From positions 1 through 64,000 of the forward strand of contig CAMKLG010000005.1 of assembly GCA_946413585.1 (NCBI GenBank): DNA of 64,000 bases, written 5' to 3'. The stretch comes from an uncultured Bacteroidales bacterium. Its GTDB lineage: Bacteria; Bacteroidota; Bacteroidia; Bacteroidales; WCHB1-69. Below are positions 68 to 29,096 of the stretch, one piece after another. Made by a program: the position numbers and the translations under genes. The notes beneath the pieces were generated by a model. It did not search any database and had not been told where the DNA came from. It saw nothing but the letters and a program-made list of their open reading frames with translations. Position 1 is the first letter of the stretch. Every line of letters begins with the position of its first letter.

Positions 68-158
68 ATTCAAAAATTAGGGTGCAAAAGTACGTTTTTT
101 TTGTGAATCTTGAAAAAATTGTACCTTTGCCGCCTCAAAAAAACGATTCTTTTTTCAG

Positions 159-812: not shown

Positions 813-852
813 CCTTTGGCTATTGGTTTTAAAATACTCGGCTAACAGCCAA

Positions 853-2565: not shown

Positions 2566-2735
2566 AAGTGGTTTGTTCTTTTGAGTTTATACGTACTTTT
2601 ATTTATTATTCAAAAAAAAATCTATCCCTTAACGTGTCATTGCATGTTTTATTATATAAAAACCTCAAAAAAATTTTCTTTCAAACGTAATGATTTATAT
2701 AGGGTTGTTATTCAGTGGGTTATAAAAAGCATTTT

Positions 2736-6587: not shown

Positions 6588-6723
6588 TATTCGTTTATTT
6601 AAAAAAAGAAAACACAATTTTCCTAACGAATTGTCGTTAGAAATATTGTAGAAAAATTGTAACAAAAAGAGGAGTAGGAACGTTTAATAATTTTGTATCT
6701 TTGCCCGCTATAAATATAATGAT

Positions 6724-7803: not shown

Positions 7804-7838
7804 CCATTTAACATCAATTAAGAAAATCAATTATAACA

Positions 7839-9335: not shown

Positions 9336-9358
9336 TTAAGGACTATATATATATTAAC

Positions 9359-9393
9359 TGACCTCTTTCTTCGCGAAAGAGGTCAATTTTTTT
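9359..9393 (+). terminator. Rho-independent terminator after gldJ
   Basis: TGACCTCTTTC-TTCGC-GAAAGAGGTCA perfect 11-bp stem followed by a T tract. Confidence 0.85.
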
Positions 9394-9399
9394 CTGTTT

Positions 9400-10791: not shown

Positions 10792-10793
10792 CC

Positions 10794-11240
10794 TTATTCC
10801 ACGGTATCCAAATCAACCCCTTTGAAACTTATAACTTCCTTGTCTTCAGAGTATAAGATGAGCTTATCTCCCTTGATTTCATATCTGTTGATATCCTTTT
10901 TCAAGGCATTGATGAAATTTCTTTCCACAGACATTTTCTGGCAAAGGCGTTTCGTGGAACCTGTATAATGGATGGTCATTTTATCCTTTTTATTGACCGA
11001 ATAGGTGCCGAACAAGGAGTTGCAGCCTAAAGAGCCTGTGACGTTGTAACTGGAATCGAATTTGATGAACGGACGCAAAGCGTAATCAGTTCCAATTTCC
11101 TCACCTTCGATGGATTCCAGCATCCATTGAGTGTTAATTAGCGGAAAATTATTGCTTTTCACATTTTTTTTGGAGGTTTTGCAACAACTGCATGTCAAGA
11201 CCAAGGCAATGACTATAATTGGATAGATGATTTTTTGCAT
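10794..11240 (-). CDS. META domain (HslJ-like) lipoprotein
   Basis: Cys-rich lipobox region; NTQWMLESIEG...GSLGCNSLFGTYSV. Confidence 0.8.
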   Translation of the reverse strand: MQKIIYPIIVIALVLTCSCCKTSKKNVKSNNFPLINTQWMLESIEGEEIGTDYALRPFIKFDSSYNVTGSLGCNSLFGTYSVNKKDKMTIHYTGSTKRLCQKMSVERNFINALKKDINRYEIKGDKLILYSEDKEVISFKGVDLDTVE

Positions 11241-11246
11241 AAGTGT

Positions 11247-11855
11247 CTATTTTATAGCGTGATAATTATCGTTAATTTGCTCTATGAAGTCCAGGATTTC
11301 ATCCCGCCCTGTCCCGGAGATAGCGGAAGATTTCATCATGTCGGGAAGTTCTTCCCACGTTTCAGAGAGTTTGTTTTTCATTTTTTGGATGTTGCTCATG
11401 GACTTCCCGCTGGAGACTTTATCGGTTTTGGTAAAGATGATGGCGAAGGGAACCCCTTGTTCCCCTAAGTTGTTAATAAAGTCAATATCAATCTGTTGCG
11501 GTTCCAATCGTGCATCTGCCAATACAAAAACCAACTGAAGATTCTCTCGAAAGAGGAGGTAGTCTGAAATCATTTTCCCCCATTTGGCACGGTTGGTTTT
11601 TGAGGTTTTGGCATATCCATAACCAGGTAAATCCACGAGATACCAGTTCTTGTTGATCAGGAAGTGGTTGATAGTCTGTGTCTTTCCTGGCTGTGAGGAT
11701 GTTTTGGCCAGACTTTTGCGGTTCACCAGCATGTTGATGAGGGACGATTTTCCCACATTGGAACGTCCGATGAAAGCGTATTCGGGCAGATTTGGGGCGG
11801 GGCATTTTCGCCAATCGGCCTCGCTTTGCAAATATTCAGCGGTTTTGATAATCAT
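11247..11855 (-). CDS. engB: Ribosome biogenesis GTP-binding protein YsxC/EngB
   Basis: FIGRSNVGKSSLIN, QPGKTQTINHF, DLPGYGYA, TKTDK. Confidence 0.95.
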   Translation of the reverse strand: MIIKTAEYLQSEADWRKCPAPNLPEYAFIGRSNVGKSSLINMLVNRKSLAKTSSQPGKTQTINHFLINKNWYLVDLPGYGYAKTSKTNRAKWGKMISDYLLFRENLQLVFVLADARLEPQQIDIDFINNLGEQGVPFAIIFTKTDKVSSGKSMSNIQKMKNKLSETWEELPDMMKSSAISGTGRDEILDFIEQINDNYHAIK

Positions 11856-11861
11856 AATTCC

Positions 11862-13202
11862 CTATTTTCTGGCTAACCATTCGTTTGGATTGACATAGCG
11901 GTCGTTCTTCCAAATTTCGAAGTGTAGTTCGTGCGTGTCGGAACTTTGGCTCTTGGCTACGGCACCGATGGTCTGTTTTGTGGAGACTTTGTCACCTTTC
12001 TTTACATTTGTTGACGAAAGGTTTTGATATACAGTGAGATATTCACCATGTCGAATCATTACCACAGTGGTGCCCATGATGTTCATCACGCTCGTGACGA
12101 CTCCTTCGAACACGGCGCGAACAGGTGTGCCGGCCTCTACCATGATGTCAATGCCATGGTTTTCTATTTGTACTGAAGGCACGTCGGGGTGTGGGTAATT
12201 GCCGAAATCACTTACCTTTGCCCCTTTCGCGACGGGCCAAGGAAGCTTCCCTTTGTTGTTGATAAAGGAGGTGTTGAGGGTTTTCTCTTCTGGAGTCAGG
12301 GAGATAGTGGTCGTGGCTTTTGCGGATGATGAGGCACTGGTGGAAGATGCCGTGGAACTTTCAGATTTGGAAGATTTTCCACTTGAGGATGATTTGGCTT
12401 TCTTACGTGCGGCATTGGCCTGGGCGATCTCCGCCTGCACTGCTTTTTGGATGGCAGCATCAATTTCTTTGCGCTTTTGCTGCTTTTTCTTCAAATCAGC
12501 GTTTAGTTTCTGAGACTCCTTCTTCAGCTTTTCGGCGTTTTGCGTTTTTTTACGTCGGTCATTCTCCAAGTTTTTGATTTCTTGTTCTTTAGAGGAAAGC
12601 GTGGTCAATTTGTTATTCTTCATTTCCACGATTTCCTCATTCTTTTTGGCCAGTTCTTCGGTTGTCTTTTGTATTCTTTCAGACTGTTCACGCACATTTC
12701 TGGAGAAGATGCTGTAGTAGCGCAGACGTCGGAACATTTGGGAAAAATTGTCAGCAGCGAGGATGAAAGTCACTTTGTCTATCAAACGGCGGTTTCGGTA
12801 TGCATTGTACACCACTTGGGCATAATCAGCCTTCATATAGGCCAAACGCTTCTCTAATTGACGAATTTCCTGTTCGTTGAGTTCTTGTTCATCCTCCATT
12901 TGCAGAATCTGGGAGTTCAATGTGGTGATCATTTTCTCACGATTCTGGATTTGTTGCCGGAGCAATGCGGCTTGTTGCACTGCCGCTTTTTGGTTCGATT
13001 CGTTCTTTTTCAGCAGTTTTTGTGTATTGGCAATCTCGTTTTCCAGTTTCTGCTTGTCCTTTTTTAACTGACTACTGCTTTTCCCATTTTGTGCGTTCAG
13101 ATACGACGGCATCAGCAGTGCGCATACGATGCACAGCAGCGACAATGCTTTTCTGATATTTGAGATTTGAATCTTCATCATAGGAAATAATATATCCTGC
13201 AA
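11862..13202 (-). CDS. EnvC-like murein hydrolase activator, coiled coil + M23 peptidase domain
   Basis: Long coiled coil, Ser/Lys-rich linker, then LPWPVAKGAKVSDFGNYPHP...HGIDI...HELHFEIWKNDRYVNPNEWL; likely start MKIQISN near 13178. Confidence 0.9.
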   Translation of the reverse strand: MQDILFPMMKIQISNIRKALSLLCIVCALLMPSYLNAQNGKSSSQLKKDKQKLENEIANTQKLLKKNESNQKAAVQQAALLRQQIQNREKMITTLNSQILQMEDEQELNEQEIRQLEKRLAYMKADYAQVVYNAYRNRRLIDKVTFILAADNFSQMFRRLRYYSIFSRNVREQSERIQKTTEELAKKNEEIVEMKNNKLTTLSSKEQEIKNLENDRRKKTQNAEKLKKESQKLNADLKKKQQKRKEIDAAIQKAVQAEIAQANAARKKAKSSSSGKSSKSESSTASSTSASSSAKATTTISLTPEEKTLNTSFINNKGKLPWPVAKGAKVSDFGNYPHPDVPSVQIENHGIDIMVEAGTPVRAVFEGVVTSVMNIMGTTVVMIRHGEYLTVYQNLSSTNVKKGDKVSTKQTIGAVAKSQSSDTHELHFEIWKNDRYVNPNEWLARK

Positions 13203-13296
13203 AAATAACGGTATTTCTTATGCCATTATTATGTTTCGCTAATTTTTATGAACATGGAAACGTTAATCTCAAAAAATGGGAAATGTTTCTTCGGTC

Positions 13297-13872
13297 TTAT
13301 TTTTTCTCAACTGAGAATCCGAACTTGCCCAGTTTTTCACCTAAAGCGTAGTAATGACCATGGGAATAGGTGACCAGTTTGGCGCGTTGCAGGTCGATGG
13401 CATCGGTTTTGGCAGAGAAGAGTTTTTCATTGACGTGCACGGCGACAATTTCTGCCAGGAAGAGGTCGTGTGTGCCGAGGGGAATCACTTGAGTGACCTT
13501 GCATTCCAGGTTGACGGGTGCTTCCTCAATCATCGGGGCGTTCACTTTGGTGGCTCGGATAGGGGTAAGTCCCGTCTCAAAAAATTTGTTGAATTTTTTT
13601 CCCGAGCGCACGCCGCACCAATCGGCAATAGGGGTTAATTCTTTGTCAACCAAGTTGATGACGAATGCTCCAGTTCTTTTCAAGATAGGGTAGGAGTGTC
13701 GGTTGGGGCGCACGGAAATAGAACACATGGGCGGGTCGGAATTTACCGTACCCGTCCATGCGATAGTGATAATATTGTATTCATCAAGGGTGCTGCCGCA
13801 GGAGACCATCACAACAGGTGTGGGATTAAGCATATTGCCCCCGCGCAGTATCCGTTTGCGTATTTTTCCCAT
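13297..13872 (-). CDS. Flavin reductase family protein
   Basis: NPTPVVMVSCGSTLDEYNIITIAWTGTVNSDPPMCSISVRPNRHSYPIL. Confidence 0.85.
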   Translation of the reverse strand: MGKIRKRILRGGNMLNPTPVVMVSCGSTLDEYNIITIAWTGTVNSDPPMCSISVRPNRHSYPILKRTGAFVINLVDKELTPIADWCGVRSGKKFNKFFETGLTPIRATKVNAPMIEEAPVNLECKVTQVIPLGTHDLFLAEIVAVHVNEKLFSAKTDAIDLQRAKLVTYSHGHYYALGEKLGKFGFSVEKK

Positions 13873-14717
13873 TATCTGCCGAGACCAGCGGATTGTACGT
13901 TGGGGATAATCAGCAGAGGCATCTTGGAAGTGCTGAGAATCTCGTTCATGTTGGAGTTGGACGTGAAGTCGGTTTCGCTCTCTTCGCGCATGATGACGAT
14001 CAGGTTGGCATCCTGCTCGTGAGCGTGGTTCAGAAGGGTTTGGACATATTCTTTTTGAACGGTCAGCGGAACCATTTCATGGCGCACATTAGCATCTTCG
14101 CACATGTCCGCTGCGTGGCGCATTTGCACGTTGATGATGTGGCGAGTGTCAGCATTGTTCGGATAATAGATACCGGCAATAGTGACTTTGGCCGCGAAAC
14201 GTTTTGCCAAGTAGGTGGCATAGCGCATCTTCTGCAATGTCTCGAAACTCAAATCGATAGGAGCATAAATATTATGCAGGTCGCGTTTGATTTCGATGTT
14301 TTCGCGCATAATCAAAATCGGAACTTTCGTTTCTCTGATTAAGCGGTTGGCATTGTTACCGATGTATCCCTCTTCGAAGCCAGAACTACCGTGGGCACCC
14401 ATCACAATGATGGGGTTGGAAAAATTGATGGCGTATTTGGGAAGCTCCACATGTACTTTACCTTCCAAGATAACCGTATTGACCTCCGTATTAGGAGATT
14501 CCATTCTGCACATATCTTTCCATTCCTCTAAGGTAGCTTGGAGTTTGTGGATATAGTCATCTCCCCCGTTTTCGGCATTTCTGGTGACACCCGGGGTCTT
14601 CACCCAAACAAGGTGCATGTCGGCACCCGTTTTCAAGGCTAATGAAACAGCATGACGCATAGCGTTCATGGAGCTGTTGGAAAAGTCAACGCCTACGATG
14701 ATATTCTTGTTATTCAT
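13872..14717 (-). CDS. Universal stress protein, tandem UspA domains
   Basis: IIVGVDFSNSSMNAMRHAV...IIVMGAHGSSGFEEGYIGNNANRLIRETKVPILIMR. Confidence 0.85.
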   Translation of the reverse strand: MNNKNIIVGVDFSNSSMNAMRHAVSLALKTGADMHLVWVKTPGVTRNAENGGDDYIHKLQATLEEWKDMCRMESPNTEVNTVILEGKVHVELPKYAINFSNPIIVMGAHGSSGFEEGYIGNNANRLIRETKVPILIMRENIEIKRDLHNIYAPIDLSFETLQKMRYATYLAKRFAAKVTIAGIYYPNNADTRHIINVQMRHAADMCEDANVRHEMVPLTVQKEYVQTLLNHAHEQDANLIVIMREESETDFTSNSNMNEILSTSKMPLLIIPNVQSAGLGR

Positions 14718-14744
14718 AACGTATTATTTTTAATGATTACTAAA

Positions 14745-16235
<1,491 letters not shown>

Positions 16236-16246
16236 TTATTTTCGTG

Positions 16247-16254
16247 CAAAAATA
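16247..16254 (-). promoter_or_regulatory. Bacteroidetes-type -7 element (TATTTTTG) for guaB
   Basis: Reverse-strand TATTTTTGC match to TAnnTTTG, ~25 nt upstream of the guaB start. Confidence 0.5.
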
Positions 16255-16342
16255 CGAAATTTATTAATATGCGGCATGGGTGTTGAAATATTTTTATTGA
16301 ACCTCGTTTTCCGGGTCGCGATTGCGGTTATCCCTCCCCCTT

Positions 16343-16386
16343 CTTTCAAGTAACTTCCAAGTTCCTTCCAAGTAACTTGCGACGCA
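16343..16386. repeat. 11-bp-period direct repeat array A (CTTYCAAGTWM, ~3-4 units)
   Basis: CTTTCAAGTAA|CTTCCAAGTTC|CTTCCAAGTAA|CTTGCGACGCA. Confidence 0.75.
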
Positions 16387-16410
16387 CTGTTCGTTTGTGT
16401 CTCCACGCGT

Positions 16411-16509
16411 AGGGCTATCGAAGGGCTATCGAAGGGCTAGCGTAGGGCTAGCGTGCGAATAGCGTGCGAATAGCGTGCGAATAGTGTGCGAATAGTGTGT
16501 GAATAGCGT
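16411..16509. repeat. 11-bp-period direct repeat array B (9 contiguous units)
   Basis: AGGGCTATCGA x2, AGGGCTAGCGT x2, GCGAATAGCGT x2, GCGAATAGTGT x2, GTGAATAGCGT x1. Confidence 0.95.
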
Positions 16510-16650
16510 GTGGCACTCAAAAGGCAAAACACAGCCTGGCGACAACCGAAAGCAGTCGTAAATGATTAACCCTGTCAACTCGGATCAGTCGTAAGACACA
16601 AAAGTGACAACCTAAATCAGCGAATCATAACCTGTTCATAAGGTTCCAGC

Positions 16651-16762
16651 ACCCAAGTATTTCCCAGGCATTACCCAAGCCATACCCAAGTCCTACCCAA
16701 GTCAAAAGGGTTTGGGTGAACTTGGCTACTACTTGGGTATTACTTGGGTATTACTTGGGTAC
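16651..16762. repeat. 11-bp-period array C arranged as an inverted repeat
   Basis: Left arm ACCCAAGTATT|TCCCAGGCATT|ACCCAAGCCAT|ACCCAAGTCCT|ACCCAAGTCAA; right arm ...ACTTGGCTACT|ACTTGGGTATT|ACTTGGGTATT|ACTTGGGTAC. Confidence 0.9.
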
Positions 16763-16846
16763 AATTCGCGGTTTGCGCTTTGCGATGCCCCTTCCGCTTC
16801 CTACGCGTGTACGCACAAAACAAACTGTCGTTGGGAAAGTGGAAAA

Positions 16847-16891
16847 CAAAAAAAAAACGCGGTCATGCTGTTTGACCGCGTTTTTTTTTTT
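16847..16891. terminator. Bidirectional intrinsic terminator-like hairpin
   Basis: A11-CGCGGTCA-TGCTGTT-TGACCGCG-T11: perfect 8-bp GC stem with flanking A and T tracts. Confidence 0.85.
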
Positions 16892-16974
16892 GTTTACCTT
16901 GATACCGCGACAACAATTGCAGCGGCTAGGAGGACGATAGGACGATATTCGAGCTAAAAGCGTGCCCAGTCACT

Positions 16975-17301
16975 CTAAAATTTTTTTGAAGTAGCAGTAT
17001 AACAATTAGCATAAGCATTAAGTGTATAACCATTTGCAGGACATAGCACATTATAAATACCACCGCTTCTCGTATTATATATTATGATTGAGTTTTGAGT
17101 TGCAATGGCTTGATATTCTGGATACAGATTATCATTTGTCTGTGTACAATTGGTGACGGCATCAACTTTGGGTGTTTCGTTTGATGCAAAAGCATGTCCA
17201 ACGGAAAATAGCAATGCACTAATTGACAATGCAACGATTGCAATACTTACAGAAATCACAAGGATTCTTTTTGAAATTGTGTCTAAATTTTTCATATTCA
17301 A
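16975..17301 (-). CDS. Small exported Cys-containing protein, unknown function
   Basis: 108 aa; N-terminal hydrophobic segment RILVISVSIAIVALSISALLFSVGHAFA, then a Cys-containing tail (TNCTQ, VLCPANG, NCYT). Confidence 0.6.
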   Translation of the reverse strand: MNMKNLDTISKRILVISVSIAIVALSISALLFSVGHAFASNETPKVDAVTNCTQTNDNLYPEYQAIATQNSIIIYNTRSGGIYNVLCPANGYTLNAYANCYTATSKKF

Positions 17302-17325
17302 TTGATTTTATGTTAATAAAAAATA

Positions 17326-18894
17326 CTATTGATGAATTTCTCCAATAAATTCTCCACGGTAAGAGTGTCCATCGTCACCTATTATATCAAAAGTGAATTT
17401 GTTTAGATTATTTTGTTTTTGGTATTTTAGTTTTCCTCCACGAATTGAATAATAATGTGTTTCAGGTTCATGCCAAAAAGAAGAACCGTTGACACCCGAA
17501 TAAGTCCCCGCTAAAAAGCGCATAGGATAGAAATTAGTTTCCCAAAGAGTATCAGCACCAATATCATTAATAACATATGGATCATAAGTTCCCTCTGCCA
17601 GACTATTCATTTTGGACAATCTATAAACAATCTGAAAATCAGGACCGCCAAATTGTAATTGTGAAAAATGAGTGGTGTTTTGGTATGGAGCCGGGAAATA
17701 GTGTGCATCTGTCAATTTCCACCTCTTACTCAAAGCAGGGCATTCCACATAGCCTACAAAATACGTGGGATTTTCTTTGCGAGAACCTATCAGCATTGCC
17801 CTTGGAGGGACATAATTGATATGGTCTGAAAATACAGCATTCCAATACCAATAAAATAAAGCTGGCCAAGCTATGTCATCAACTTTTACGTTGATTGCAT
17901 CGTACGCATCTTCAGCATTAAGTTTTTGCTGCAACATGTTAGTGGCAAACTCTATAGCTTTATTCTTAACAAATCCTTGAGTAACAGCATGGGTAAATCC
18001 AAGATAATATGAGGCATTTTTTTCATTAATGAAAACATCTCGTAAACTACTATTGTCGAAAGTGTGGCAAGCGCCAATATATACTACTGAAGGGCTGGTA
18101 AAAGTTCCTGAAACATATTTCGATATAAATTTATTGGAAACAGCCCAATAATGACCCTCATTACTTAATTTCATGACTTCTAAGTCGTTAACATACTCTT
18201 TTGACACGCCAGCAGTAGTAACTAAAATTTTCCGTTCATTTGTAACATCCTCATCTGCGATTTGAGAATTATCAGCGATTTCCCTTGTTAATAACCAACA
18301 TACTTTTTCTCCGTGAGAATTTTCATAAAATCCACCATGTGAATGTATGTAAATGGAGCCGTAGTTAGTCAAGTCAAATAAAGATTGTAGATTGCATTCA
18401 TAGTACTGCTTAACAACCACATTAAAGTTTATATCACTGCAACCATCAAAAATATTTTGCAAATCTTCAGCAAAATGGTTTCCAGACCACCAATCCCAAA
18501 TTAAAACATTATAATTTGTAATCTGAACCTCATCGTTTATTCCCTTGGTATTAAATTTAATTGATTGGGACGTTCTTTTTTCTTGTTCTTCAGTTTCATC
18601 AATCAAAAGGATCACACTCGTGATACCTGATTTATATTTTATCACAATCTGGTCGAAATCTTGAACATAGGCAGAAGCGACCTCTGGATATAATAAAAGT
18701 TGTTGAATACAATTGTTAATTATAGATTCCCCGCTTTGTCCGGGTACACTTAGGCTATTCAAAACATCTATGGCATTTTCCTGTATTTCGATAATTCTAG
18801 AAATCTCAATCTCATTTTGCTCTTTATGACATGAGAACAAAAACAAGAGTGAAAATGATGCCAACAATAAACAAGCTATTTTCCTCATAATCAA
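17326..18894 (-). CDS. Lipoprotein with clan CD/CHAT-like cysteine peptidase motifs
   Basis: Lipobox SLLFLFSCHK; hydrophobic strand + HG (YGSIYIHSHGG) and hydrophobic strand + AC (PSVVYIGACHTF). Confidence 0.55.
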   Translation of the reverse strand: MIMRKIACLLLASFSLLFLFSCHKEQNEIEISRIIEIQENAIDVLNSLSVPGQSGESIINNCIQQLLLYPEVASAYVQDFDQIVIKYKSGITSVILLIDETEEQEKRTSQSIKFNTKGINDEVQITNYNVLIWDWWSGNHFAEDLQNIFDGCSDINFNVVVKQYYECNLQSLFDLTNYGSIYIHSHGGFYENSHGEKVCWLLTREIADNSQIADEDVTNERKILVTTAGVSKEYVNDLEVMKLSNEGHYWAVSNKFISKYVSGTFTSPSVVYIGACHTFDNSSLRDVFINEKNASYYLGFTHAVTQGFVKNKAIEFATNMLQQKLNAEDAYDAINVKVDDIAWPALFYWYWNAVFSDHINYVPPRAMLIGSRKENPTYFVGYVECPALSKRWKLTDAHYFPAPYQNTTHFSQLQFGGPDFQIVYRLSKMNSLAEGTYDPYVINDIGADTLWETNFYPMRFLAGTYSGVNGSSFWHEPETHYYSIRGGKLKYQKQNNLNKFTFDIIGDDGHSYRGEFIGEIHQ

Positions 18895-19042: not shown

Positions 19043-22009
19043 TTAGCCTTTACGTAGTCTTTCCAGAGCATTGATTAAAAACACGTTGTCGCATAGGAAA
19101 ACCGGTCTGGTTTCATACGGAGCGCCTTTGTAGGAACCCATTTCTTCGAAATCATTTAGCAGGTTTGTCTTTTTCCTGTCGAAGTTTGTCCTAGACAGTT
19201 TGTCTTCATCGAAGAGAAGTGGATACAAGTATTGGGGCTTCATCAATTTGAGAATGATAATTTGTTCTTCTTTCTGCTTCTTTTGAAATTCCTTCATCAG
19301 GTCAACAGAATCTTCCGAATTCTCCGGTAATGATGGTTCGAGCAAAAGTAGAGCAGCTGCCCACATTTTCAAATAGATGGCACGAGTTTCCTCATCGCGG
19401 CGAGAACTGAATGAAATGGCCTCGTGGATTCTTTCAGAAAGCATGCTGATTTCTTCTCGGAAAATGGATACATATTTTGTGTTCAAATCGAACAGCTCCT
19501 GATGATATTGTATCACCCAGTTACGGAGGGCAAGTTGGTCCAATCGAATGGATGGCTCCCAAAGTTTCTCTTGAACAATTTTAGTACAATTTTGCATCTC
19601 ATGGTAAAAATTATATTGGCTTATCTCCACTTTGTTAATCGTATCTACCAAGTTTCCCTTCAAGTACAGAAACTTTTGATAATCACTGAACTTGTTAATG
19701 GATTCTGTCATGGAATAGTTTTGGATATTCCTTTCTTCTTTGAATAAATCATTTCCTAAAACATTTGTTCGAATGACTTCACGTCCTTTTTCGAATTGTT
19801 CTTTAGTATTGCGAAGTTCAGTGTTTTGCTTGTTGAGTACTACATTTTGTTTGTTGAGTCTGGTGTTTTGTTTGTTGAGCTTAGTGTTTTGCCTGTTGAG
19901 TTCGTCATTCTGACTGCAGAGCTCAGTGTTTTTGCTATCGAGTTCAGTATTCTGTTTGTTGAGTTCTTCGATTTTTTTCTTTTTGCACAAACTCCAAATG
20001 GTGAGGGAAATAACAAGGAGAATCAGGATAATAGCGACGGGAACACCGATATTGACGACCGATTGCAAATGTTTTTTGATGAAGATCCCACATCTTACAA
20101 AGAAAGGTTCTTTCAATTTGATTGGCACCAGTGGTGTTTCATCGTTGATACCCCAATTAAACTGCACAAGTCCAAGACTGGATCCAGCCGTAATTTCATT
20201 ATCGCGAATGTGAATGGCATCGGGGTAGAAGAGTATGTCGGGATAAAGGGTATCGATAAGTGAGATTCGTGAGCCGTTCTGTGCAAATACATACAGCCCA
20301 CCAATTTGTGAAACACCTACAATATAGATTTTGTCCTGATAAGTCAGTGGATGGATTCGGTTAATATAAAGGTTGTGAATGTTTTCGATGCTGTCATAAT
20401 GGACTTCCTTGCCATGACTGTCCACGCCAAGACTATCTACATAGAGTGCCATCGGGGTAAGAACGAACATCTTTTTTATGTTTTTGCAAGGTAAAATATC
20501 CATGATGTTTGTACGATGGGGGAATAAGGTGTCAACAAACATCTTTTGTTTAAGATCTCTGACAATACATCCGTCGTTCAGCGTTCCGATATATAAAATG
20601 TCACTATCTGGTTGTGCAAAGCATTGTACGGAAAGCAGGGTGGAGTCGTATGTAAGGCTTTTGGTGTCCAACAGGCCTGATTGTACAGTACTATACGCGT
20701 AACCGTTTCTAAAAGCGAGGAAGAGACGTTGTTTGGCTGAAGAATCCCAGTACATGCGTGTGATTTTGGTTTGGCTGAATTTGTCTGGACATAAGCTTCT
20801 CAAAGACTTTTCTTTGTGGCCATCGGCTAGAAAGAAGACGTCACCACCAGACCGTACGCATAGTTTGTTTTGCAGGAAATAAGCCTGGTTGATTTCATTT
20901 TTAATAGTTTCTGGATCGACTATATTTTTTCTTTTGTATTGCCATTTGTCAATTTGGGAATAGACCCCGTTTTGATCGCTTATGGTAAAGAGCGAGTTAT
21001 GGTTTTCGGCAATGGCAGTAATATGTTTCTCTTGAGGCAGATGGTTCGGAATCTGACAAAGCGAAGAACCTGAAATAAAATAGGCAGAGCCTGTCTTTGC
21101 GATGATGTTGGCAGTAGGGGTATATTGTTCATTGGCTAGAGTGAGCTGGTACACAGTCAGGGAATCCGGGTTAAGATCATTTCCCATCAGGATGCGGTCG
21201 TCAGTCATCAGGAGAAAACGATGATCAGACGATGGGTCTTTCAGGCAGGAATGAACCCCTAAACTGTTTTCGTAGCTTGGCATTCCCTTGCAAACAAGGC
21301 TATCCTTGCGGATGATGATTAGTTTTTCTGTCGAACCAAATGTGCCAACGTAAAGATTTTGGATTTTATCAGGGTAGGTGTCGATACGTAGCAGAGAGTC
21401 TGATCCATTCTTGTCATTGAAAAATATGACGTGAATTAGTTTATCATAACTTGCATACAGGGTGTCACCGATACGTTGGATGGCAGAAATCTTGTAGTCT
21501 GGCTGTACAACAGAAGGATATAGGGCTTGTAGCGAGTCTGGATGGAGCAAGTCGAGTTTTGCCAGTCCATTAGAAGTGGCGCAGATCAGCCAGTTGCCCT
21601 CACGTTCCACTTTGTAAACGGAGTAAAGGTGACCCTTAGAACCAAAAGTCAAGGAGATTGGTTTGGAAAAATGGTTGTCTTTGAAAATTTTGAGTCCCTC
21701 GTTCCTCACCCCGACGAAAGTGACAGGAGTGCCTTGGGGAAATGAATCTTGTCGCACAAAGTACACACGATCATCACCCACTTTCTCCTGCTTGGATGTG
21801 GCATCACTCGTATTGAAAAAGATGACTTTCCCGTTTTCCGTCCCAAGAAGGAGCGTGTCTCCTGAACCGAAATCCAGTGAAGTCAAAATGTCATTGAAAT
21901 GATATTCGGAGAATGAGGAGAAAGGGGTTGGTTCTGCTGTTTTGGAGCAGGCACCCAATAAGGCTGCAAGACTTCCCAAAAGGAAAAACAATAGACTTCT
22001 CTTCTTCAT
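19043..22009 (-). CDS. Lipoprotein-type sensor: beta-propeller-like periplasmic region, one TM, heptad coiled coil, uncharacterised cytosolic domain
   Basis: Start MKKRSLLFFLLGSLAALLGACSK (ORF track starts at 22084); propeller-like repeats; TM VVNIGVPVAIILILLVISLTIWSLC; LNKQNTx repeats; no histidine-kinase motifs seen. Confidence 0.65.
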   Translation of the reverse strand: MKKRSLLFFLLGSLAALLGACSKTAEPTPFSSFSEYHFNDILTSLDFGSGDTLLLGTENGKVIFFNTSDATSKQEKVGDDRVYFVRQDSFPQGTPVTFVGVRNEGLKIFKDNHFSKPISLTFGSKGHLYSVYKVEREGNWLICATSNGLAKLDLLHPDSLQALYPSVVQPDYKISAIQRIGDTLYASYDKLIHVIFFNDKNGSDSLLRIDTYPDKIQNLYVGTFGSTEKLIIIRKDSLVCKGMPSYENSLGVHSCLKDPSSDHRFLLMTDDRILMGNDLNPDSLTVYQLTLANEQYTPTANIIAKTGSAYFISGSSLCQIPNHLPQEKHITAIAENHNSLFTISDQNGVYSQIDKWQYKRKNIVDPETIKNEINQAYFLQNKLCVRSGGDVFFLADGHKEKSLRSLCPDKFSQTKITRMYWDSSAKQRLFLAFRNGYAYSTVQSGLLDTKSLTYDSTLLSVQCFAQPDSDILYIGTLNDGCIVRDLKQKMFVDTLFPHRTNIMDILPCKNIKKMFVLTPMALYVDSLGVDSHGKEVHYDSIENIHNLYINRIHPLTYQDKIYIVGVSQIGGLYVFAQNGSRISLIDTLYPDILFYPDAIHIRDNEITAGSSLGLVQFNWGINDETPLVPIKLKEPFFVRCGIFIKKHLQSVVNIGVPVAIILILLVISLTIWSLCKKKKIEELNKQNTELDSKNTELCSQNDELNRQNTKLNKQNTRLNKQNVVLNKQNTELRNTKEQFEKGREVIRTNVLGNDLFKEERNIQNYSMTESINKFSDYQKFLYLKGNLVDTINKVEISQYNFYHEMQNCTKIVQEKLWEPSIRLDQLALRNWVIQYHQELFDLNTKYVSIFREEISMLSERIHEAISFSSRRDEETRAIYLKMWAAALLLLEPSLPENSEDSVDLMKEFQKKQKEEQIIILKLMKPQYLYPLLFDEDKLSRTNFDRKKTNLLNDFEEMGSYKGAPYETRPVFLCDNVFLINALERLRKG
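19806..19971 (-). repeat. ~21-bp intragenic repeats encoding LNKQNTE-like 7-residue units
   Basis: LNKQNTE LDSKNTE LCSQNDE LNRQNTK LNKQNTR LNKQNVV LNKQNTE LRNTKEQ in the ORF translation. Confidence 0.85.
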
Positions 22010-22031: not shown

Positions 22032-22039
22032 CAAAAATA
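22032..22039 (-). promoter_or_regulatory. -7 element (TATTTTTG) of the sensor gene
   Basis: Reverse-strand TATTTTTGC, ~25 nt upstream of the start at 22009. Confidence 0.5.
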
Positions 22040-22060
22040 CGTTTTTTTCAAGTATGAATC

Positions 22061-22093
22061 ATAAGTATAGTGTTTTTTAAACACTATACTTAT
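22061..22093. promoter_or_regulatory. Perfect palindrome, 15-bp arms, 3-nt centre; candidate operator or hairpin
   Basis: ATAAGTATAGTGTTT-TTT-AAACACTATACTTAT, overlapping the expected -33 zone of the sensor promoter. Confidence 0.75.
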
Positions 22094-22199: not shown

Positions 22200-22228
22200 T
22201 TTGAAGATAGTGGGATGACGTATCTTTG
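22200..22228 (+). promoter_or_regulatory. Candidate promoter of the DUF805...phosphatase operon
   Basis: TTTG (22200-22203) - 17 nt - TATCTTTG (22221-22228). Confidence 0.45.
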
Positions 22229-22294: not shown

Positions 22295-22888
22295 ATGAAA
22301 GCACGTAAAATTTTTCAGTTCTTATTTGGTTTCCGCGGGCGCATGACCCGTAAACCTTTTTGGATCGCCTACGTGGCAGATCAAATTCTTTTAGCCCTTT
22401 CGGTGATGTTATTTATCGAATTGTTATTTCTCGACGATAGGCCAGACTATTGGAGCGAGTCAATCCATTGGCTGTCAATAGTTGGTGTTGTGCTCCTTTG
22501 TATTATAACGTTAGTTGCACTCATCAGCGGGCTGGCATTCATTTCACGTCGGCTACATGATTCTGGAAGAGGGTTCGGAGGTTTCGTCGCTCTCTGCTTC
22601 GTAGGATGCGTGTGTAACCTTATCCCTTTATTGGGACCAATTATCTCCTTAGGTCTTTCCATCTACGTCTTTATCCTTCTTTGCCAACCCACAGATTTTG
22701 AAGATGAGACTTATGGACCTGCTCCGAAACGGGATGTTGTATCGGAAGAGAGCACCATGACCGAAGAAGAACAGTGTCGTCTCGAAGAGTATAATCTCAC
22801 CCATCTCAATGGTATCCTGTTGGAACCAGCAGAGGAAAACGATCAGACTCTATTCGAAGAGGCAGATCCTGATTGGTCATTAAACTAA
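22295..22888 (+). CDS. DUF805 membrane protein with acidic C-terminal tail
   Basis: FLFGFRGRMTRKPFWIAYV...ISRRLHDSGRGFGGFVALCF...YVFILLCQPTDFEDETYGP. Confidence 0.8.
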   Translation: MKARKIFQFLFGFRGRMTRKPFWIAYVADQILLALSVMLFIELLFLDDRPDYWSESIHWLSIVGVVLLCIITLVALISGLAFISRRLHDSGRGFGGFVALCFVGCVCNLIPLLGPIISLGLSIYVFILLCQPTDFEDETYGPAPKRDVVSEESTMTEEEQCRLEEYNLTHLNGILLEPAEENDQTLFEEADPDWSLN

Positions 22889-22947
22889 ATTTCAGCGTCA
22901 GTAAAAAAACAATCATTAATCAATTCAATTAAAAAAATCATATAGTC

Positions 22948-23253
22948 ATGAAAATATCTACTATATTTCTGATTTCTTTAGCTTTTTGGGGATGCACATT
23001 CTTGTTGAATTATCTGCTTGATAAATTTAACGAAAAAAGAACCGAACAACATTTTCGTTTTTCCTTTTTTGTTTTCTTCTCCATCGTTATCATTGTTATC
23101 ATCGCTCTTCATGCGCATAAGGAAAATAGAGAACGACACGAGGAAGAATTCTTATACCAAACCGAAACAGTTTCTACAAAAACCGACAATGCTGTTTTGG
23201 GAGACAGCATGAATCTGTCAGCATCCGACAAGAACAATCCCTATTATGAATAA
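22948..23253 (+). CDS. Small two-TM-like membrane protein, unknown function
   Basis: 101 aa, two hydrophobic segments; in the operon spacing pattern. Confidence 0.5.
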   Translation: MKISTIFLISLAFWGCTFLLNYLLDKFNEKRTEQHFRFSFFVFFSIVIIVIIALHAHKENRERHEEEFLYQTETVSTKTDNAVLGDSMNLSASDKNNPYYE

Positions 23254-23373
23254 AGATTGAACATCAAATGTATCAAATAAACAATTTCATCACAAAAAAC
23301 CAATTTTATGAAAAAATCAAACAATCCAGCCCAAAACAACAAACCCAATTATTCATCAAAAAAATTAACCGTT

Positions 23374-24735
23374 ATGAAAAACTTAAAACTTTTATCGAAA
23401 CTTGCGGGAATCATCCTGCTTCTTGTGGTCACGGTGCAGATTGCAACGGCCGGTAATCCTCAAACCCCATACCAACAACTGCAAAACATACTGGATGAGT
23501 ATGGCATTGAAAAATACGCAGTTACCGACGAACTGACGGGTAGAGAAGTAGAATACATTTCTATTGATGTTGCCATACGATTCAAAGTGCCGGAAAGTGT
23601 GGTGACTAGTGCGACAACAATAGGCGAAATGCTTACGAACATCCTAACGTATCAGTATGCCGAAAAAAAAGGCGAAGAATGGGAGTGGAAGAAAATACAG
23701 TATAGTAGTAACTCTATTGATTACGATTGGTTTTTGCGTTTATATCCGAAATCCAAGCACAGCGAGGAGGCTATATCAAAATATATGGTGACACGACTGC
23801 ACGAAGTGTACATCAGCCTTGCAGAAGCGGAATCTGTTGACGAAGTTTGTGATAACTTCTTTTATCTGCACACAATGTACTCTAACTATTACGACAGATT
23901 TATTCGCAAACACAAATGTGGCGGGTGTGGTATTTCTTATATTGATTACGAAGGATTTTCCATTATTAACCCAGAAGAGTGGGCTGATGTTTTTAGAGAA
24001 ACATCTCAAATGAAGGCTGAACAACAGCGTGACTGGAAAGCCGTGATCCGTGAAAACACACATGATGCCTATTTTGATTACTGTTTGAGATATCCCCAAT
24101 GTGTTACTGTTGACACAGCAATTGAAAGAATAAAGAGATTCGAACAGACAGAGTGGGATAAAGCATTGGAAATTGACAATAGAGATGCTTGCGAAATGTT
24201 TGTCAAGCAGTTTCCGAAGGGCTATTACAGCATTGCTGCTTATCGCAAAATTGTGAGCTCTCATCTTGACACCACTTCTACCGGTGCAGTGGAAGACTTG
24301 CTAACGCAACAATGCCAATACGGCCGTCAGTATTTTTCACTATTATGCATTGGAAATATCTTCAAGAAGGACAAACACTATACTGTCACACTATCTGGAG
24401 ATCTCGGATACAGGCTGGAAATAGGGCCTGGCGAAATTAAATGGCAAGAGGTGCTGAACGGAGACTATCTAATGCTTGTTGAAGCAGAGGGTGAGGAACC
24501 GTGGTGGGGAGAAATATCGTGCTATGGCTATATCTATGTTGCAACATGGTATGTAAAAAACGAATACCATGCATATTCTAACTTCAACACGCACCGACTC
24601 ACAAACTTATATGATGATCCTTACGAGACAGAAACGTTTTTTACCAATGTTTCCGCCACCAATGATCCCCAAATAGACCGAATGGCCGCAAAGCGATTTG
24701 TCAAAGCAATTGAAGAACAATGCGAAGATTATTAG
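23374..24735 (+). CDS. Exported protein with W..A...NT..Y..Y...P-type repeats, unknown function
   Basis: Signal peptide MKNLKLLSKLAGIILLLVVTVQIATAG; repeated segments DWKAVIRENTHDAYFDYCLRYP / EWDKALEIDNRDACEMFVKQFP; CGGC motif. Confidence 0.6.
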   Translation: MKNLKLLSKLAGIILLLVVTVQIATAGNPQTPYQQLQNILDEYGIEKYAVTDELTGREVEYISIDVAIRFKVPESVVTSATTIGEMLTNILTYQYAEKKGEEWEWKKIQYSSNSIDYDWFLRLYPKSKHSEEAISKYMVTRLHEVYISLAEAESVDEVCDNFFYLHTMYSNYYDRFIRKHKCGGCGISYIDYEGFSIINPEEWADVFRETSQMKAEQQRDWKAVIRENTHDAYFDYCLRYPQCVTVDTAIERIKRFEQTEWDKALEIDNRDACEMFVKQFPKGYYSIAAYRKIVSSHLDTTSTGAVEDLLTQQCQYGRQYFSLLCIGNIFKKDKHYTVTLSGDLGYRLEIGPGEIKWQEVLNGDYLMLVEAEGEEPWWGEISCYGYIYVATWYVKNEYHAYSNFNTHRLTNLYDDPYETETFFTNVSATNDPQIDRMAAKRFVKAIEEQCEDY

Positions 24736-24777
24736 TCATCATTATGATTCAAACCAGAAAAGAAAGGAGGCCTGAAA

Positions 24778-26565
24778 ATGATATCCAAAGGCACAAACAT
24801 TTGCGGTTACACCGTCATGTCCGAACTTGAGGATGGCTATTATTACGATTGCTATCAAGTGAAAGACAAAAAGGGGACACTCTTCAACCTCAAACTCATT
24901 GACCTGGATTTGGCACCACCATCGCAGTTGTTGGAGAATGACATGTTGAAGGAGATGGTGATTGTAGAAGGAATTCACCATCCGAATATCATCAACTTCT
25001 GCGACCAAGGTTTCTTCAAGAAGGGCCGTGATCAATACGGGTACATTGTAACGGAGTCGTTCCATGGATTTCCCTTGTCAGAGTTTATAAAGGAGGAATA
25101 TTGTTTTAGTGATAGAGAGATCTGTCTGATAGTCCAAAAGACACTCAGTGCACTCCACTATCTACACATACAGGGAATAATCCACAACAATTTGAATTCT
25201 AACAAGATACTCCTCCCTGTTGGTTGCAACAAGTGTGAGCATCTGAAACTGATTGATTTTGGATTTGCCAGAATGGATGTGGATTATAAAGACAGTTTTT
25301 CTCTTATCGGGCGTGACAGTTACCTGTTGCTGTCTCCAGAACAGCTCTCTGGTCGTGGATGCATACAGTCCGATATCTACAGCGTTGGGCTGATCCTGTA
25401 TGAGCTTCTTTACAGAAAATTACCCTGGGACATCGAGTGTGATGAATTTTCGTCACCCGAAACAGTGTTGGAACTGTTCAAGAATCGCGTAACTCCAATA
25501 CCATTCCCAAAGCGAAACGGAGCAGAACTTGATGAACGGATAAAAGGAATTATCCAGATAGCCCTTCGAAACGATGTGCAATGCCGTTATGAAGCAGCGA
25601 TAGACATGTTCGCAGAATTAAACAACATTCTCCATAACAACATTCAGGACTTTTTCGATGACAATCTGTTCAATGATGTTTTCGAAGAAGAGGAACAGGA
25701 ATGTCGTAAAGAAGATATGAAGTCGGCAAACCAACATGGCAATGGGTTTGCCGACGTGGCCGGACTGGAAGACGTAAAGGAAATGCTCCAGAGGTCAATA
25801 ATCCAAATCTTGAAAGATCGGAATCGGGCACAACGGTACAGAATATCCATCCCCAACGGCATTCTGCTGTACGGGCCTCCTGGATGTGGCAAAAGTTTTA
25901 TTGCCGAGAAATTTGCCGAGGAGGCCGGGTACCATTACATGTACTTCAAATCTTCAGATATATCCAGTATCTTCCTGCACGGCACGCAAGGAAAAATAGG
26001 GAAACTCTTTGAAGAAGCGAGAGAGAAAGCTCCAACGATCATCTGTTTTGACGAGTTCGACGCTATGGTGCCTTCTCGTGACAATATTTACGCCCAATAC
26101 CAAGCTGGAGAAGTGAACGAGTTCCTTTCCCAACTCAACAACTGCGGGAAAGACAACATCTTCGTCATAGCTTCCTCCAACAAGCCGGAACTGATAGACA
26201 GTGCTATTTTGAGGCGGGGACGTATTGACAAAATGTTCTATATTCCACCTCCTGATCAGAATACGCGAAAAAAGCTGTTTGAAATTTATTTGAAAGGCAG
26301 GCCTTGTTCTCGCGACATCAACTATGAGAAGCTTGCCAATTGTAGCGAATATTATGTGGCCAGCGACATTGCCTTTTTGGTAAATGAGGCCGCCATATGT
26401 GCTTCCGAGGCGAATGAAGTGATCTCGCAGCCCCTCCTTGAGGACATCATTGTTGCCAACAAACCTTCTCTCTCCAAGGCCATTCTTGAACAATACGAGA
26501 AAACGAGAAGATCTTTTGAAGGGAACATCTCTTTCAATACCGCTATCGGTTTTCATGTTTTTTAA
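24778..26565 (+). CDS. Protein kinase-like (probable pseudokinase) domain fused to a classical AAA+ ATPase
   Basis: N-term kinase fold motifs (HIQGIIHNNLNSNKILL, LKLIDFGFARM, SPEQLSGRGCIQSDIYSVGLILYELLYRKLPW); C-term FADVAGLEDVKE, GPPGCGKS, CFDEFDAM, SSNKPELIDSAILRRGRID. Confidence 0.85.
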   Translation: MISKGTNICGYTVMSELEDGYYYDCYQVKDKKGTLFNLKLIDLDLAPPSQLLENDMLKEMVIVEGIHHPNIINFCDQGFFKKGRDQYGYIVTESFHGFPLSEFIKEEYCFSDREICLIVQKTLSALHYLHIQGIIHNNLNSNKILLPVGCNKCEHLKLIDFGFARMDVDYKDSFSLIGRDSYLLLSPEQLSGRGCIQSDIYSVGLILYELLYRKLPWDIECDEFSSPETVLELFKNRVTPIPFPKRNGAELDERIKGIIQIALRNDVQCRYEAAIDMFAELNNILHNNIQDFFDDNLFNDVFEEEEQECRKEDMKSANQHGNGFADVAGLEDVKEMLQRSIIQILKDRNRAQRYRISIPNGILLYGPPGCGKSFIAEKFAEEAGYHYMYFKSSDISSIFLHGTQGKIGKLFEEAREKAPTIICFDEFDAMVPSRDNIYAQYQAGEVNEFLSQLNNCGKDNIFVIASSNKPELIDSAILRRGRIDKMFYIPPPDQNTRKKLFEIYLKGRPCSRDINYEKLANCSEYYVASDIAFLVNEAAICASEANEVISQPLLEDIIVANKPSLSKAILEQYEKTRRSFEGNISFNTAIGFHVF

Positions 26566-26585
26566 TCATTTAAATACAGATCATT

Positions 26586-26867
26586 ATGGATAATTTATTA
26601 GAAACAAACTTTTATCTTTTTATTAGTGTTATCTACATCATTGTTTTATCTATTGTGGGTGTTTTTTTCGGATTGATGGCTTTCTTAGAAAATCGTAGTG
26701 AAGGGGAAACCATCACGTTCAAGGAATCTATCGTAATAGTGCTTAAAGGATTGTCCATTATAATATTGGTAGGTTTCGTGTTAGGAACGATAACCTATTT
26801 TGGTTCGAATCTATTATGCGATATGGGGCTTGATGCTTCAAATGCTCCTGAAAATCCTTATTTTTAG
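26586..26867 (+). CDS. Small membrane protein, unknown function
   Basis: 93 aa, two TM-like segments, 21 bp after the previous stop. Confidence 0.5.
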   Translation: MDNLLETNFYLFISVIYIIVLSIVGVFFGLMAFLENRSEGETITFKESIVIVLKGLSIIILVGFVLGTITYFGSNLLCDMGLDASNAPENPYF

Positions 26868-26868
26868 C

Positions 26869-27396
26869 ATGATTGGCAGAATTATGAGAGTACTATTTGT
26901 TTTGTTAGTGATCGCCGTGATGGGCATGCTAGTTTGGGCTATTGGCAAAAAGAATGAAAGTTTAGGAGGTTGTTCTTTCGTGCTGTGTATTCTTCTGCTG
27001 ATATTCGGCTCTATAATGCTCAGTTCTGTTAAAGGAGAAGGCCTTTTCTATGACCAAGGTGAAACCATATATAAGGCCTCTCTGCTTCCTGTACATCCCC
27101 CCAATGATAGTGTCTATCTCGAAGTTCGGCATAATTCTTATGGAGGTGAAACTTTCTGTTTCAGAAACACAGAGGAGAATTTTGTGGTCAAAGAGTGGTA
27201 CCAGTGTCAGGTGAATTACCATGATGATGAGTTTGAACCATATTGCGAATGTGTCTCCACAAAACCAAAGACATGGTCGAAATATATCTTCAAACCCGAT
27301 CACAAACGTATGCAGCCTCATTATATCCTGCATGTGCATTCTCGCCATGTAAATGATATACCATGTAAAGATTACTCTTGGGATGTGCCTTATTGA
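26869..27396 (+). CDS. Membrane-anchored protein with soluble C-terminal domain, unknown function
   Basis: Start MIGRIMRVLFVLLVIAVMGMLVWAIG 1 bp after the upstream stop (ORF track starts at 26800); TM segments then a ~110-aa soluble region. Confidence 0.55.
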   Translation: MIGRIMRVLFVLLVIAVMGMLVWAIGKKNESLGGCSFVLCILLLIFGSIMLSSVKGEGLFYDQGETIYKASLLPVHPPNDSVYLEVRHNSYGGETFCFRNTEENFVVKEWYQCQVNYHDDEFEPYCECVSTKPKTWSKYIFKPDHKRMQPHYILHVHSRHVNDIPCKDYSWDVPY

Positions 27397-27419
27397 TTGT
27401 TCTATGAAATTTTAGAAAT

Positions 27420-28172
27420 ATGAAACCGAATAACATCAAACTGATTATCGTGCCCGACATTCATGGGCGCACTTTTTGGGAAGACGTTTTCAAATTTGAT
27501 ACCGAAATCGTTTTCTTGGGTGATTACCTGGATCCATATCCTTATGAGGAAATCTATCCTTGGGATGCACTGGATAATTTCACTCACATATTGTCTTTCG
27601 CGAAAGGGAATCCGAGAGTTCACCTTTTGATCGGGAATCACGATCTCGCCTATGTCAAAGATCCCAAAATGTGTCAAAATCGCATAGACAGGGCGAATTA
27701 CGACGAGATACACAAGTTGTTTATTGGCAATGAGGGCTTGTTTTCTTTGGCATACGAATGCACCATCAATGGGAAACACTTCTTTCTTTCACATGCAGGT
27801 ATAACACCAGGCTGGCATAAAGCGCATTCAAATATATTCAAAAGATCTTTTTCTGAATCATTGAATGCGGATTACATTAACCAATTGTATCTTGACGGCT
27901 CGTTGAATGGCATCTTGGGAGAGGTGGGCTACCAAAGGTATGGCTCCAATAAACATGGTAGTATTGTATGGGCAGACATCTATGAGCACGAGGAAGCCCA
28001 CCAGGATTGCCAGACAGATACCATTCAAATTGTGGGACATACCCAACGGGTAGAATCCCCTTTGTGGATAGAACGGCCTAATTTTGTCTATGATGTGGAT
28101 ATCCGGCAGTGCGTGTATCTTGACACAGAGGGAAATATATGCTTGCTTGACACGGGAGAAAATATAGGATAA
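27420..28172 (+). CDS. PPP-type calcineurin-like metallophosphatase
   Basis: VPDIHGR, GDYLDPY, GNHDLAY, SHAGITPGW, IVGHTQR. Confidence 0.85.
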   Translation: MKPNNIKLIIVPDIHGRTFWEDVFKFDTEIVFLGDYLDPYPYEEIYPWDALDNFTHILSFAKGNPRVHLLIGNHDLAYVKDPKMCQNRIDRANYDEIHKLFIGNEGLFSLAYECTINGKHFFLSHAGITPGWHKAHSNIFKRSFSESLNADYINQLYLDGSLNGILGEVGYQRYGSNKHGSIVWADIYEHEEAHQDCQTDTIQIVGHTQRVESPLWIERPNFVYDVDIRQCVYLDTEGNICLLDTGENIG

Positions 28173-28487: not shown

Positions 28488-29096
28488 ATGACGAATATTA
28501 TGGATGTAGAAGACAAGATGATCACTCTGAGAAACCAGCAGGTGATTCTGGACTCTGATGTAGCGAATCTCTATGACGTGGAGACTCGTGATATAAACAA
28601 AGCGGTTAAAAACAACCCGAGGAAGTTTCCCGAAGGTTACATTATCGAACTAAATGCCTCTGAGAAACGTGAACTGGTGGAAAATTTCCACCGGTTCAAT
28701 CGACAGAAACACTCCACCACCAATCCTAAAGCTTTCACCGAGAAAGGTCTCTATATGTTGGCCACAATCCTGAAAGGACCCAAAGCAGAGGAAACTACCA
28801 TTGCCATCGTGGAAGCATACGCGAAACTGCGTGAACTCGCTCAGGTGATATCCGAAGTATCGCAACACGAAGACGACAAAGCGGTACAGCAATCGCTGCT
28901 GCAGCGTGGCGGACAGCTAGCGGCGGAGCTGCTGACAGACAATCTGCCAATCCAAAGCAGCGAGACCTCCGTGGAGCTGAACCTTGCTATGTTCAAGCTC
29001 AAGCACACTGTAAAGCGGGAAAAAGACGATGAAATTGTTCAACTGAAACAGGAACTGGCGGAACTGAAACGAATGGTGCGTCCAGACGCTCCATAA
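28488..29096 (+). CDS. ORF6N domain-containing protein
   Basis: ITLRNQQVILDSDVANLYDVETRDINKAVKNNPRKFPEGYIIEL...AFTEKGLYMLATIL. Confidence 0.85.
   Translation: MTNIMDVEDKMITLRNQQVILDSDVANLYDVETRDINKAVKNNPRKFPEGYIIELNASEKRELVENFHRFNRQKHSTTNPKAFTEKGLYMLATILKGPKAEETTIAIVEAYAKLRELAQVISEVSQHEDDKAVQQSLLQRGGQLAAELLTDNLPIQSSETSVELNLAMFKLKHTVKREKDDEIVQLKQELAELKRMVRPDAP

Follow-up and report, generated by a model that had tools for sequence, protein, structure and literature searches.

A pseudokinase–AAA+ fusion and its divergent partner gene in an uncultured Bacteroidales bacterium: a possible membrane-signal-gated unfoldase

Introduction

What might a kinase-like domain do once it has lost catalytic residues and is joined to an intact AAA+ motor, and which of the genes around such a fusion belong with it? 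The question is raised by a 64,000-nucleotide (nt) stretch of DNA, here called the window, from an uncultured Bacteroidales bacterium (WCHB1-69; assembly GCA_946413585.1, contig CAMKLG010000005.1, positions 1–64,000 of the forward strand; the bacterium is of a gut type, and its genome is referred to as G000). Positions 22,295–28,172 hold seven co-directional genes, the fourth of which (FUSION) encodes the kinase-like/AAA+ protein. An initial annotation of this DNA took the seven genes for a membrane-associated signaling or protein-remodeling device in which a phosphatase resets the kinase-like part. The membrane-linked character of the locus and the central place of the fusion stand, but what is conserved is not the set of seven genes as a whole. 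The best-conserved partners include two elements overlooked in that annotation: a divergent gene (PROP) for a predicted periplasmic beta-propeller sensor, and a palindrome next to it. It is quite possible, although we hold the view tentatively, that a divergent, co-regulated cluster of ~19.0–28.2 kb links a sensor in the envelope to a protein-remodeling motor in the cytosol and so acts as a membrane-signal-gated unfoldase.

Results

FUSION is a genuine fusion of a Pkinase domain to a classical AAA+ domain. Active Hanks-type Ser/Thr kinases have the HRD Asp and an Mg-binding Asn within the motif HRDLKxxN; FUSION has HNNLNSNK at this position and lacks both residues, which makes the label of pseudokinase that it had been given a fair one. 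The kinase-like domain of its sister fusion, in genome G154, is likewise degenerate. By profile comparison, the AAA+ half belongs to the CDC48/FtsH class, and it has every feature expected of a classical motor: Walker A and B, sensor 1, the arginines of the second region of homology (SRH), and the pore aromatic. Across 43 aligned fusions, the Walker A Lys, Walker B Glu, sensor 1 Asn, and first SRH Arg are kept in all 43, and a pore-loop Y, F, or W in 42. The catalytic Asp of the kinase-like half is found in 10 of 10 fusions of a branch associated with TY-chaperones, versus 2 of 19 in the clade that holds the window fusion and those found with Hsp70. In a maximum-likelihood tree, the window and G154 fusions group together (100/100) inside this 19-row Hsp70-type clade (100/99).

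Where are such fusions found? About 40 fusion loci were gathered from relatives, GTDB genomes, and one plasmid; statements that a gene is absent from a genome are based on genome searches. A strong match to the fusion occurs in 18 of the 393 genomes of the order. The initial annotation had proposed clustering the neighborhoods of AAA+ homologues, and the outcome goes against its seven-gene unit: most fusion homologues lack the DUF805 gene, the gene for an exported protein (EXPORT), and the phosphatase gene, and EXPORT is present in only three of the loci. Most of the loci instead have an Hsp70/TerB-like or a TY-chaperone neighborhood, giving three recurrent types when the window type is included.

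The first type is a five-gene operon, which houses most non-window members of the clade of the window fusion. Its order is C24 (J-like), C23 (possibly GrpE-like), Hsp70 (Pfam, 1.3e-68), the fusion, and a TerB-like gene whose Pfam TerB match (4.5e-4) is under the curated cut-off. C24 usually has a C-terminal transmembrane (TM) helix and appears J-like by eye from its N-terminus, NPYRILG. C23 has a signal peptide, a coiled coil, one TM helix, and a conserved cytosolic tail. In profile comparison, the tail (e.g., of L033:13096–14001, minus strand) is co-linear with the head of E. coli GrpE, but the match is weak (E 0.002–0.006, probability 6–12%), and a PDB profile search with C23 did not find GrpE. 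The co-linear alignment suggests that C23 is a membrane-anchored GrpE-like factor, an assignment that remains a lead because of the weak match and the PDB result. Since C23 is a signal-peptide, single-TM protein, transmembrane input recurs in the Hsp70-type operons. No alignment was obtained between PROP and C23, and the two are not treated as relatives. In the second type, the fusion lies with a TY-Chap1/YbjN peptide-binding chaperone. In the third type, that of the window, PROP diverges from a run that holds EXPORT, genes for small TM proteins, and the fusion.

The genome of the window also has a fusion of the second type, a paralogue on contig C57 (L003, 1459–6274), which keeps the catalytic Asp, is presumably active as a kinase, and lies beside TY-Chap1-like and ClpX-like AAA+ genes. 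L059 and L061 hold relatives of the AAA+ half from acidobacteria, and the preceding gene in L059 is Hsp70-like by eye.

How well is the window type conserved? Among the 41 genus genomes searched, good relatives of EXPORT occur in just three, namely G000, G031, and G154; among the 393 genomes of the order, 4 have a match, the fourth being a weak partial one in G190. PROP is present in the identical trio of genus genomes. In all three, EXPORT and PROP are divergent neighbors with the fusion in the same run as EXPORT, and the pair is found only in fusion-bearing genomes. The chance of an identical trio under independence is 9e-5 (shared ancestry ignored), a figure to be taken as a guide only because the three genomes are related. 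The genes that flank the cluster are not common to the three. PROP of G031 is 53–55% identical to that of the window; the G154 copy, which runs off its contig, is 36% identical over a partial alignment. The best Foldseek matches of PROP are the periplasmic propeller domains of BT4673 and BT4663 (2e-12, from a low-confidence model with a mean predicted local distance difference test [pLDDT] of 46), and its predicted topology agrees with these matches. No Pfam match to a histidine kinase or receiver domain was found in PROP or its G031 and G154 relatives, bearing in mind that the latter is truncated.

Other members of the cluster recur to differing degrees. EXPORT homologues lie beside the fusion as two copies in G031 and as one copy plus a short paralogue in G154. 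EXPORT was modeled with a mean pLDDT of 64; its N-terminal helical part is predicted with confidence, the model also contains a beta-sandwich, and the best match among solved structures is BamD (3qky, 6.8e-4). No match to EXPORT was found in phage records or viral contigs, and a phage or virus origin is rejected. TM93 has a 50% identical homologue in the G031 fusion operon, and TM177 has two homologues between EXPORT and the fusion in G154, the better one at 36%. Extra diverged EXPORT copies beside the main one in L157 (10844–11551) and L033 (15537–16949) suggest that this component diversifies.

The window operon has no dedicated genes for Hsp70, C23, C24, or a TerB-like protein. No dedicated Hsp70 was found in G000 (only ~88% complete) or G154 (99% complete); each has the housekeeping DnaK and a weak MreB-range match only. 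G031, which is also of the window type, retains Hsp70 genes: a single run holds EXPORT, TM93, the J-like gene, C23, Hsp70, and the fusion, with PROP divergent. The simplest reading is that the Hsp70 module would have been lost in the lineage of the window and G154.

The DNA between PROP and the seven genes carries further features (Table 1). A perfect inverted repeat lies between the divergent promoters; its arms are 15 nt in the window, and G031 has, in the corresponding position, a longer perfect repeat (18-nt arms) that shares this core. Genome-wide pattern searches for the core, TATAGTGTN{0,8}ACACTATA, gave one match in all of G000 and one in G031, and the reversed control pattern gave none. 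The sequence CGTATTnTTGCAAC around the −7 element of the PROP promoter is common to G031 by eye. The promoter-like element noted earlier upstream of the seven genes is an exact pattern match, and the general pattern of this type (TTTG-N17-TATCTTTG) has seven matches in the window versus 1.7 expected from shuffles. None of the cluster genes evidently encodes a DNA-binding protein that could bind the palindrome.

The order of the seven plus-strand genes is as first described, and all of their open reading frames are present in the window. Gaps first put at ~60, ~55–120, 43, 21, 1, and 23 bp measure 59, 54 or 120, 42, 20, 1, and 23 nt in the sequence. Two further genes were considered as members and rejected: the gene at 17326–18894 is separated and not conserved with the cluster, and the plus-strand ORF6N gene at 28488 lies 315 bp past the phosphatase gene, with other promoter-like elements intervening, and is likewise not conserved with it. 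The product of the latter (28488–29096) is an ORF6N/phage anti-repressor-like protein with a PADLOC PDC-S05 match of 7e-77.

Table 1. Coordinates of the genes, domains, and DNA elements of the cluster (aa, amino acids; TM, transmembrane)
Feature	Position	Strand	Details
PROP, predicted periplasmic beta-propeller sensor	19043–22009	−	lipobox-like signal, one TM (aa 651–669), cytosolic coiled coil, C-terminal helical region
Promoter-like TATG-N20-TATTTTTG for PROP	22032–22063	−	pattern match
Perfect inverted repeat ATAAGTATAGTGTTT-ttt-AAACACTATACTTAT, operator candidate	22061–22093		between divergent promoters
Promoter-like TTTG-N17-TATCTTTG for seven genes	22200–22228	+	exact pattern match
DUF805 membrane protein	22295–22888	+	197 aa, 3 predicted TM, Pfam PF05656 1.2e-15
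TM101, membrane protein	22948–23253	+	101 aa, 2 predicted TM
EXPORT, secreted TPR/BamD-like helical protein with C-terminal beta-sandwich	23308 or 23374–24735	+	475/453 aa, signal peptide
FUSION, N-terminal pseudokinase and C-terminal classical AAA+	24778–26565	+	595 aa, Pfam Pkinase 1.6e-28, AAA 1.1e-29
Pseudokinase domain of FUSION	24808–25593	+	aa 11–272; beta3 Lys39, alphaC Glu59, DFG retained; HRD>HNN, Mg-binding Asn>Lys
AAA+ motor of FUSION	25738–26502	+	aa about 321–575; Walker A/B, sensor 1 Asn, SRH arginines, pore-loop aromatic
TM93, two-TM protein	26586–26867	+	93 aa, predicted TM
TM177, two TM and soluble domain	26869–27396	+	175 aa; start read from sequence, 1 nt past preceding stop
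PPP-type metallophosphatase	27420–28172	+	250 aa, Pfam Metallophos 1.1e-5; motifs PDIHGR, GDYLD, GNHD, SHAG, GHTQ

Is the cluster a phosphorylation circuit? The last of the seven genes encodes, with fair confidence from motifs and profile, a PPP-type phosphatase, as initially labeled; a profile built from it and its relatives matches the PDB entries of calcineurin and PP1 (about 1e-9). A reversible phosphorylation circuit, in which the kinase-like domain is active and controls the AAA+ motor together with the phosphatase, would account for the presence of both in one run. A phosphatase homologue also lies directly downstream of a distant fusion (L063) whose kinase domain keeps the catalytic Asp, and a PP2C-like gene is seen by eye near the divergent fusion of L053. 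Such a circuit is nevertheless highly improbable for the window, where HRD has become HNN and the Mg-binding Asn is Lys, and where the sister domain in G154 is degenerate too. Furthermore, the phosphatase has relatives in 10 of the 393 genomes, mostly away from any fusion, and none in G154 or G031, so it is rejected as a core part. The earlier idea that the phosphatase resets the kinase is weak for the same two reasons, the degenerate kinase domain and the distance of most phosphatase relatives from a fusion. In L053 (5853–10831), the PP2C-like gene and a zinc-ribbon-like gene, both by eye, are just upstream of the fusion, an arrangement that recalls TerY-P triads.

The first two of the seven genes were likewise rejected as core. 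The only DUF805 gene near another fusion is a weak relative (28%) three kilobases off in L164, and TM101 has no homologue in any fusion locus. That these passengers are not conserved alongside the core is consistent with ordinary envelope maintenance, in which the locus would be a lineage-specific quality-control operon for membrane proteins, PROP would have no signaling role, and DUF805, TM101, and the phosphatase would be along for the ride. The BamD/TPR-like exported protein and an AAA+ domain of the CDC48/FtsH class also fit that description. We regard it as quite unlikely, because the very patchy distribution of the fusion is unlike that of a housekeeping function, and because a dedicated operator-like palindrome and a divergent sensor-like gene are part of the cluster.

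Could the cluster be an anti-phage or conflict system? Here, a membrane sensor or chaperone module would detect infection, and one of the small TM proteins would be an effector that damages membranes once the AAA+ motor activates or releases it. The loci are patchy and variable, and Hsp70-type operons adjoin or lie within BREX, Gabija, or restriction-modification loci in at least four cases. In L158 (G190, 94–18384) and L159, the order is BrxC, the five Hsp70-type genes, PglX, ZorA, RT_UG19, PglZ, and BrxL. On the Haliscomenobacter hydrossis plasmid pHALHY02 (L189, NC_015512.1, 3787–13371), the operon lies 14 bp from brxL. In L049 the operon adjoins GajA/GajB (Gabija), and in L051 its neighbor is a type I restriction gene. 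Flank proteins with a strong PADLOC match (E below 1e-60) number at least 13 of 71 for the Hsp70 type versus about 4 of 65 for the TY-chaperone branch (Fisher p 0.04), although proteins within one island are not independent counts; by locus, the excess is 4/17 versus 1/13 and is not significant (p 0.35). No defense system adjoins the window, G031, or G154 clusters, and against PADLOC systems the cluster proteins show only generic kinase and AAA+ similarity. Defense is therefore a serious rival rather than a conclusion, given the non-significant locus-level excess and the lack of such neighbors in these three clusters; on balance, it is somewhat unlikely. The five genes on pHALHY02 are annotated as a CFI-box-CTERM protein, “septum formation initiator,” Hsp70, AAA family ATPase, and TerB; they are convergent with brxL/pglZ, and two WD40-repeat genes lie upstream of them.

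Discussion

How might a membrane-signal-gated unfoldase work? First, PROP would sense a cue in the periplasm and use its TM helix and coiled coil to alter the state of the cytosolic machine, with the signal presumably running in this direction. Second, the pseudokinase half of FUSION probably no longer phosphorylates; it may instead serve for docking or allosteric control, recruiting a partner or client and gating the AAA+ hexamer. Third, the intact AAA+ ring would unfold or extract a client protein; membrane or secreted products of its own operon (EXPORT, TM93, or TM177) are the likeliest candidates. Fourth, the palindrome between the two promoters may be an operator for their joint control. 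The phosphatase would be an accessory. The cluster would be an offshoot of a broader family whose fusions pair either with an Hsp70 of their own or, on the second branch, with a TY-chaperone.

Several observations weigh against this proposal. The propeller assignment comes from a low-confidence model, the palindrome core is absent from G154 in a genome pattern search, and the genome of the window is the less complete of the two that lack a dedicated Hsp70. Linkage to the fusion is not conserved for DUF805 and TM101 and is weak for the phosphatase. The PROP/EXPORT form is found in three genomes, all of one genus, and co-inheritance could therefore account for part of the linkage.

Does the cluster correspond to a known system? 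As initially stated, none could be named: NCBIfam and PADLOC yield generic kinase and AAA+ matches only, and Pfam offers none either. PROP resembles the hybrid two-component sensors of Bacteroides (BT4663/BT4673 type) in its propeller matches, with the caveat of the model, and in its order of periplasmic sensor, TM helix, and cytosolic part; it differs in that no histidine kinase or receiver was found, and a coiled coil and C-terminal helical region lie next to an AAA+ operon. The AAA+ half of FUSION is like CDC48/SpoVK/FtsH-class ATPases, with all motor motifs and the pore-loop aromatic. However, CDC48 has tandem AAA+ domains, whereas FUSION has one behind a pseudokinase; FtsH has an M41 protease and TM segments, whereas FUSION has no Pfam peptidase domain and no TM helix, and the FtsH profile covers its AAA+ part only. 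The same half scores against IetA profiles (7.8e-30), but IetAS has a subtilase-type partner, whereas the cluster proteins include no protease and have a kinase-like domain instead. MoxR-vWA ternary conflict systems differ in that the window AAA+ is of the CDC48/FtsH class, and no vWA match was found in the cluster.

Closer parallels come from conflict systems, as far as the available passages of their descriptions extend. NTP-dependent conflict systems include HSP70/GrpE/DnaJ and inactive kinases (PMC7159879), and they share with the present family the theme of a chaperone plus an inactive kinase in patchy loci; they are built on MoxR-vWA or GAP1-N2 GTPases rather than a kinase-AAA+ fusion. 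TY-chaperones are described in PMC9503650. CoCoNuT extensions carry SpoVK-type AAA+ and TerY-P triads (PMC11090510), and CoCoNuT/TerY-P-type loci likewise unite CDC48-like AAA+, kinase, phosphatase, and Hsp70-like domains in defense-type loci, but they do so in separate genes and also have vWA, PP2C, and a GTPase core of the McrBC type, all of which are missing from the window. The kinase-AAA+ fusion and the gene set are absent from those passages of the three papers, and Hsp70 and TerB go unmentioned in the main text, as excerpted, of a 2026 BREX survey (PMC12839542). No published description of the cluster or the operon family was found in the open-access literature, so its absence is not certain.

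What are the implications? A kinase-AAA+ fusion together with Hsp70, transmembrane coiled-coil, J-like membrane, and TerB-like proteins is a recurring Bacteroidota operon that is apparently undescribed, with one copy within BREX. In the window form, the place of the Hsp70 module is taken by a predicted sensor of the propeller type, a TPR-like secreted protein, and an operator-like palindrome of its own. We think it doubtful, but worth stating, that the window form represents a new class of transmembrane signaling, in which a propeller sensor without a histidine kinase acts through a pseudokinase on an AAA+ unfoldase and the output is remodeling rather than phosphotransfer, and that its Hsp70-bearing sister form is an undescribed chaperone module in defense islands. 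If the model of a gated unfoldase holds, an envelope signal would be converted into ATP-driven protein remodeling, with a dead kinase as the gate.

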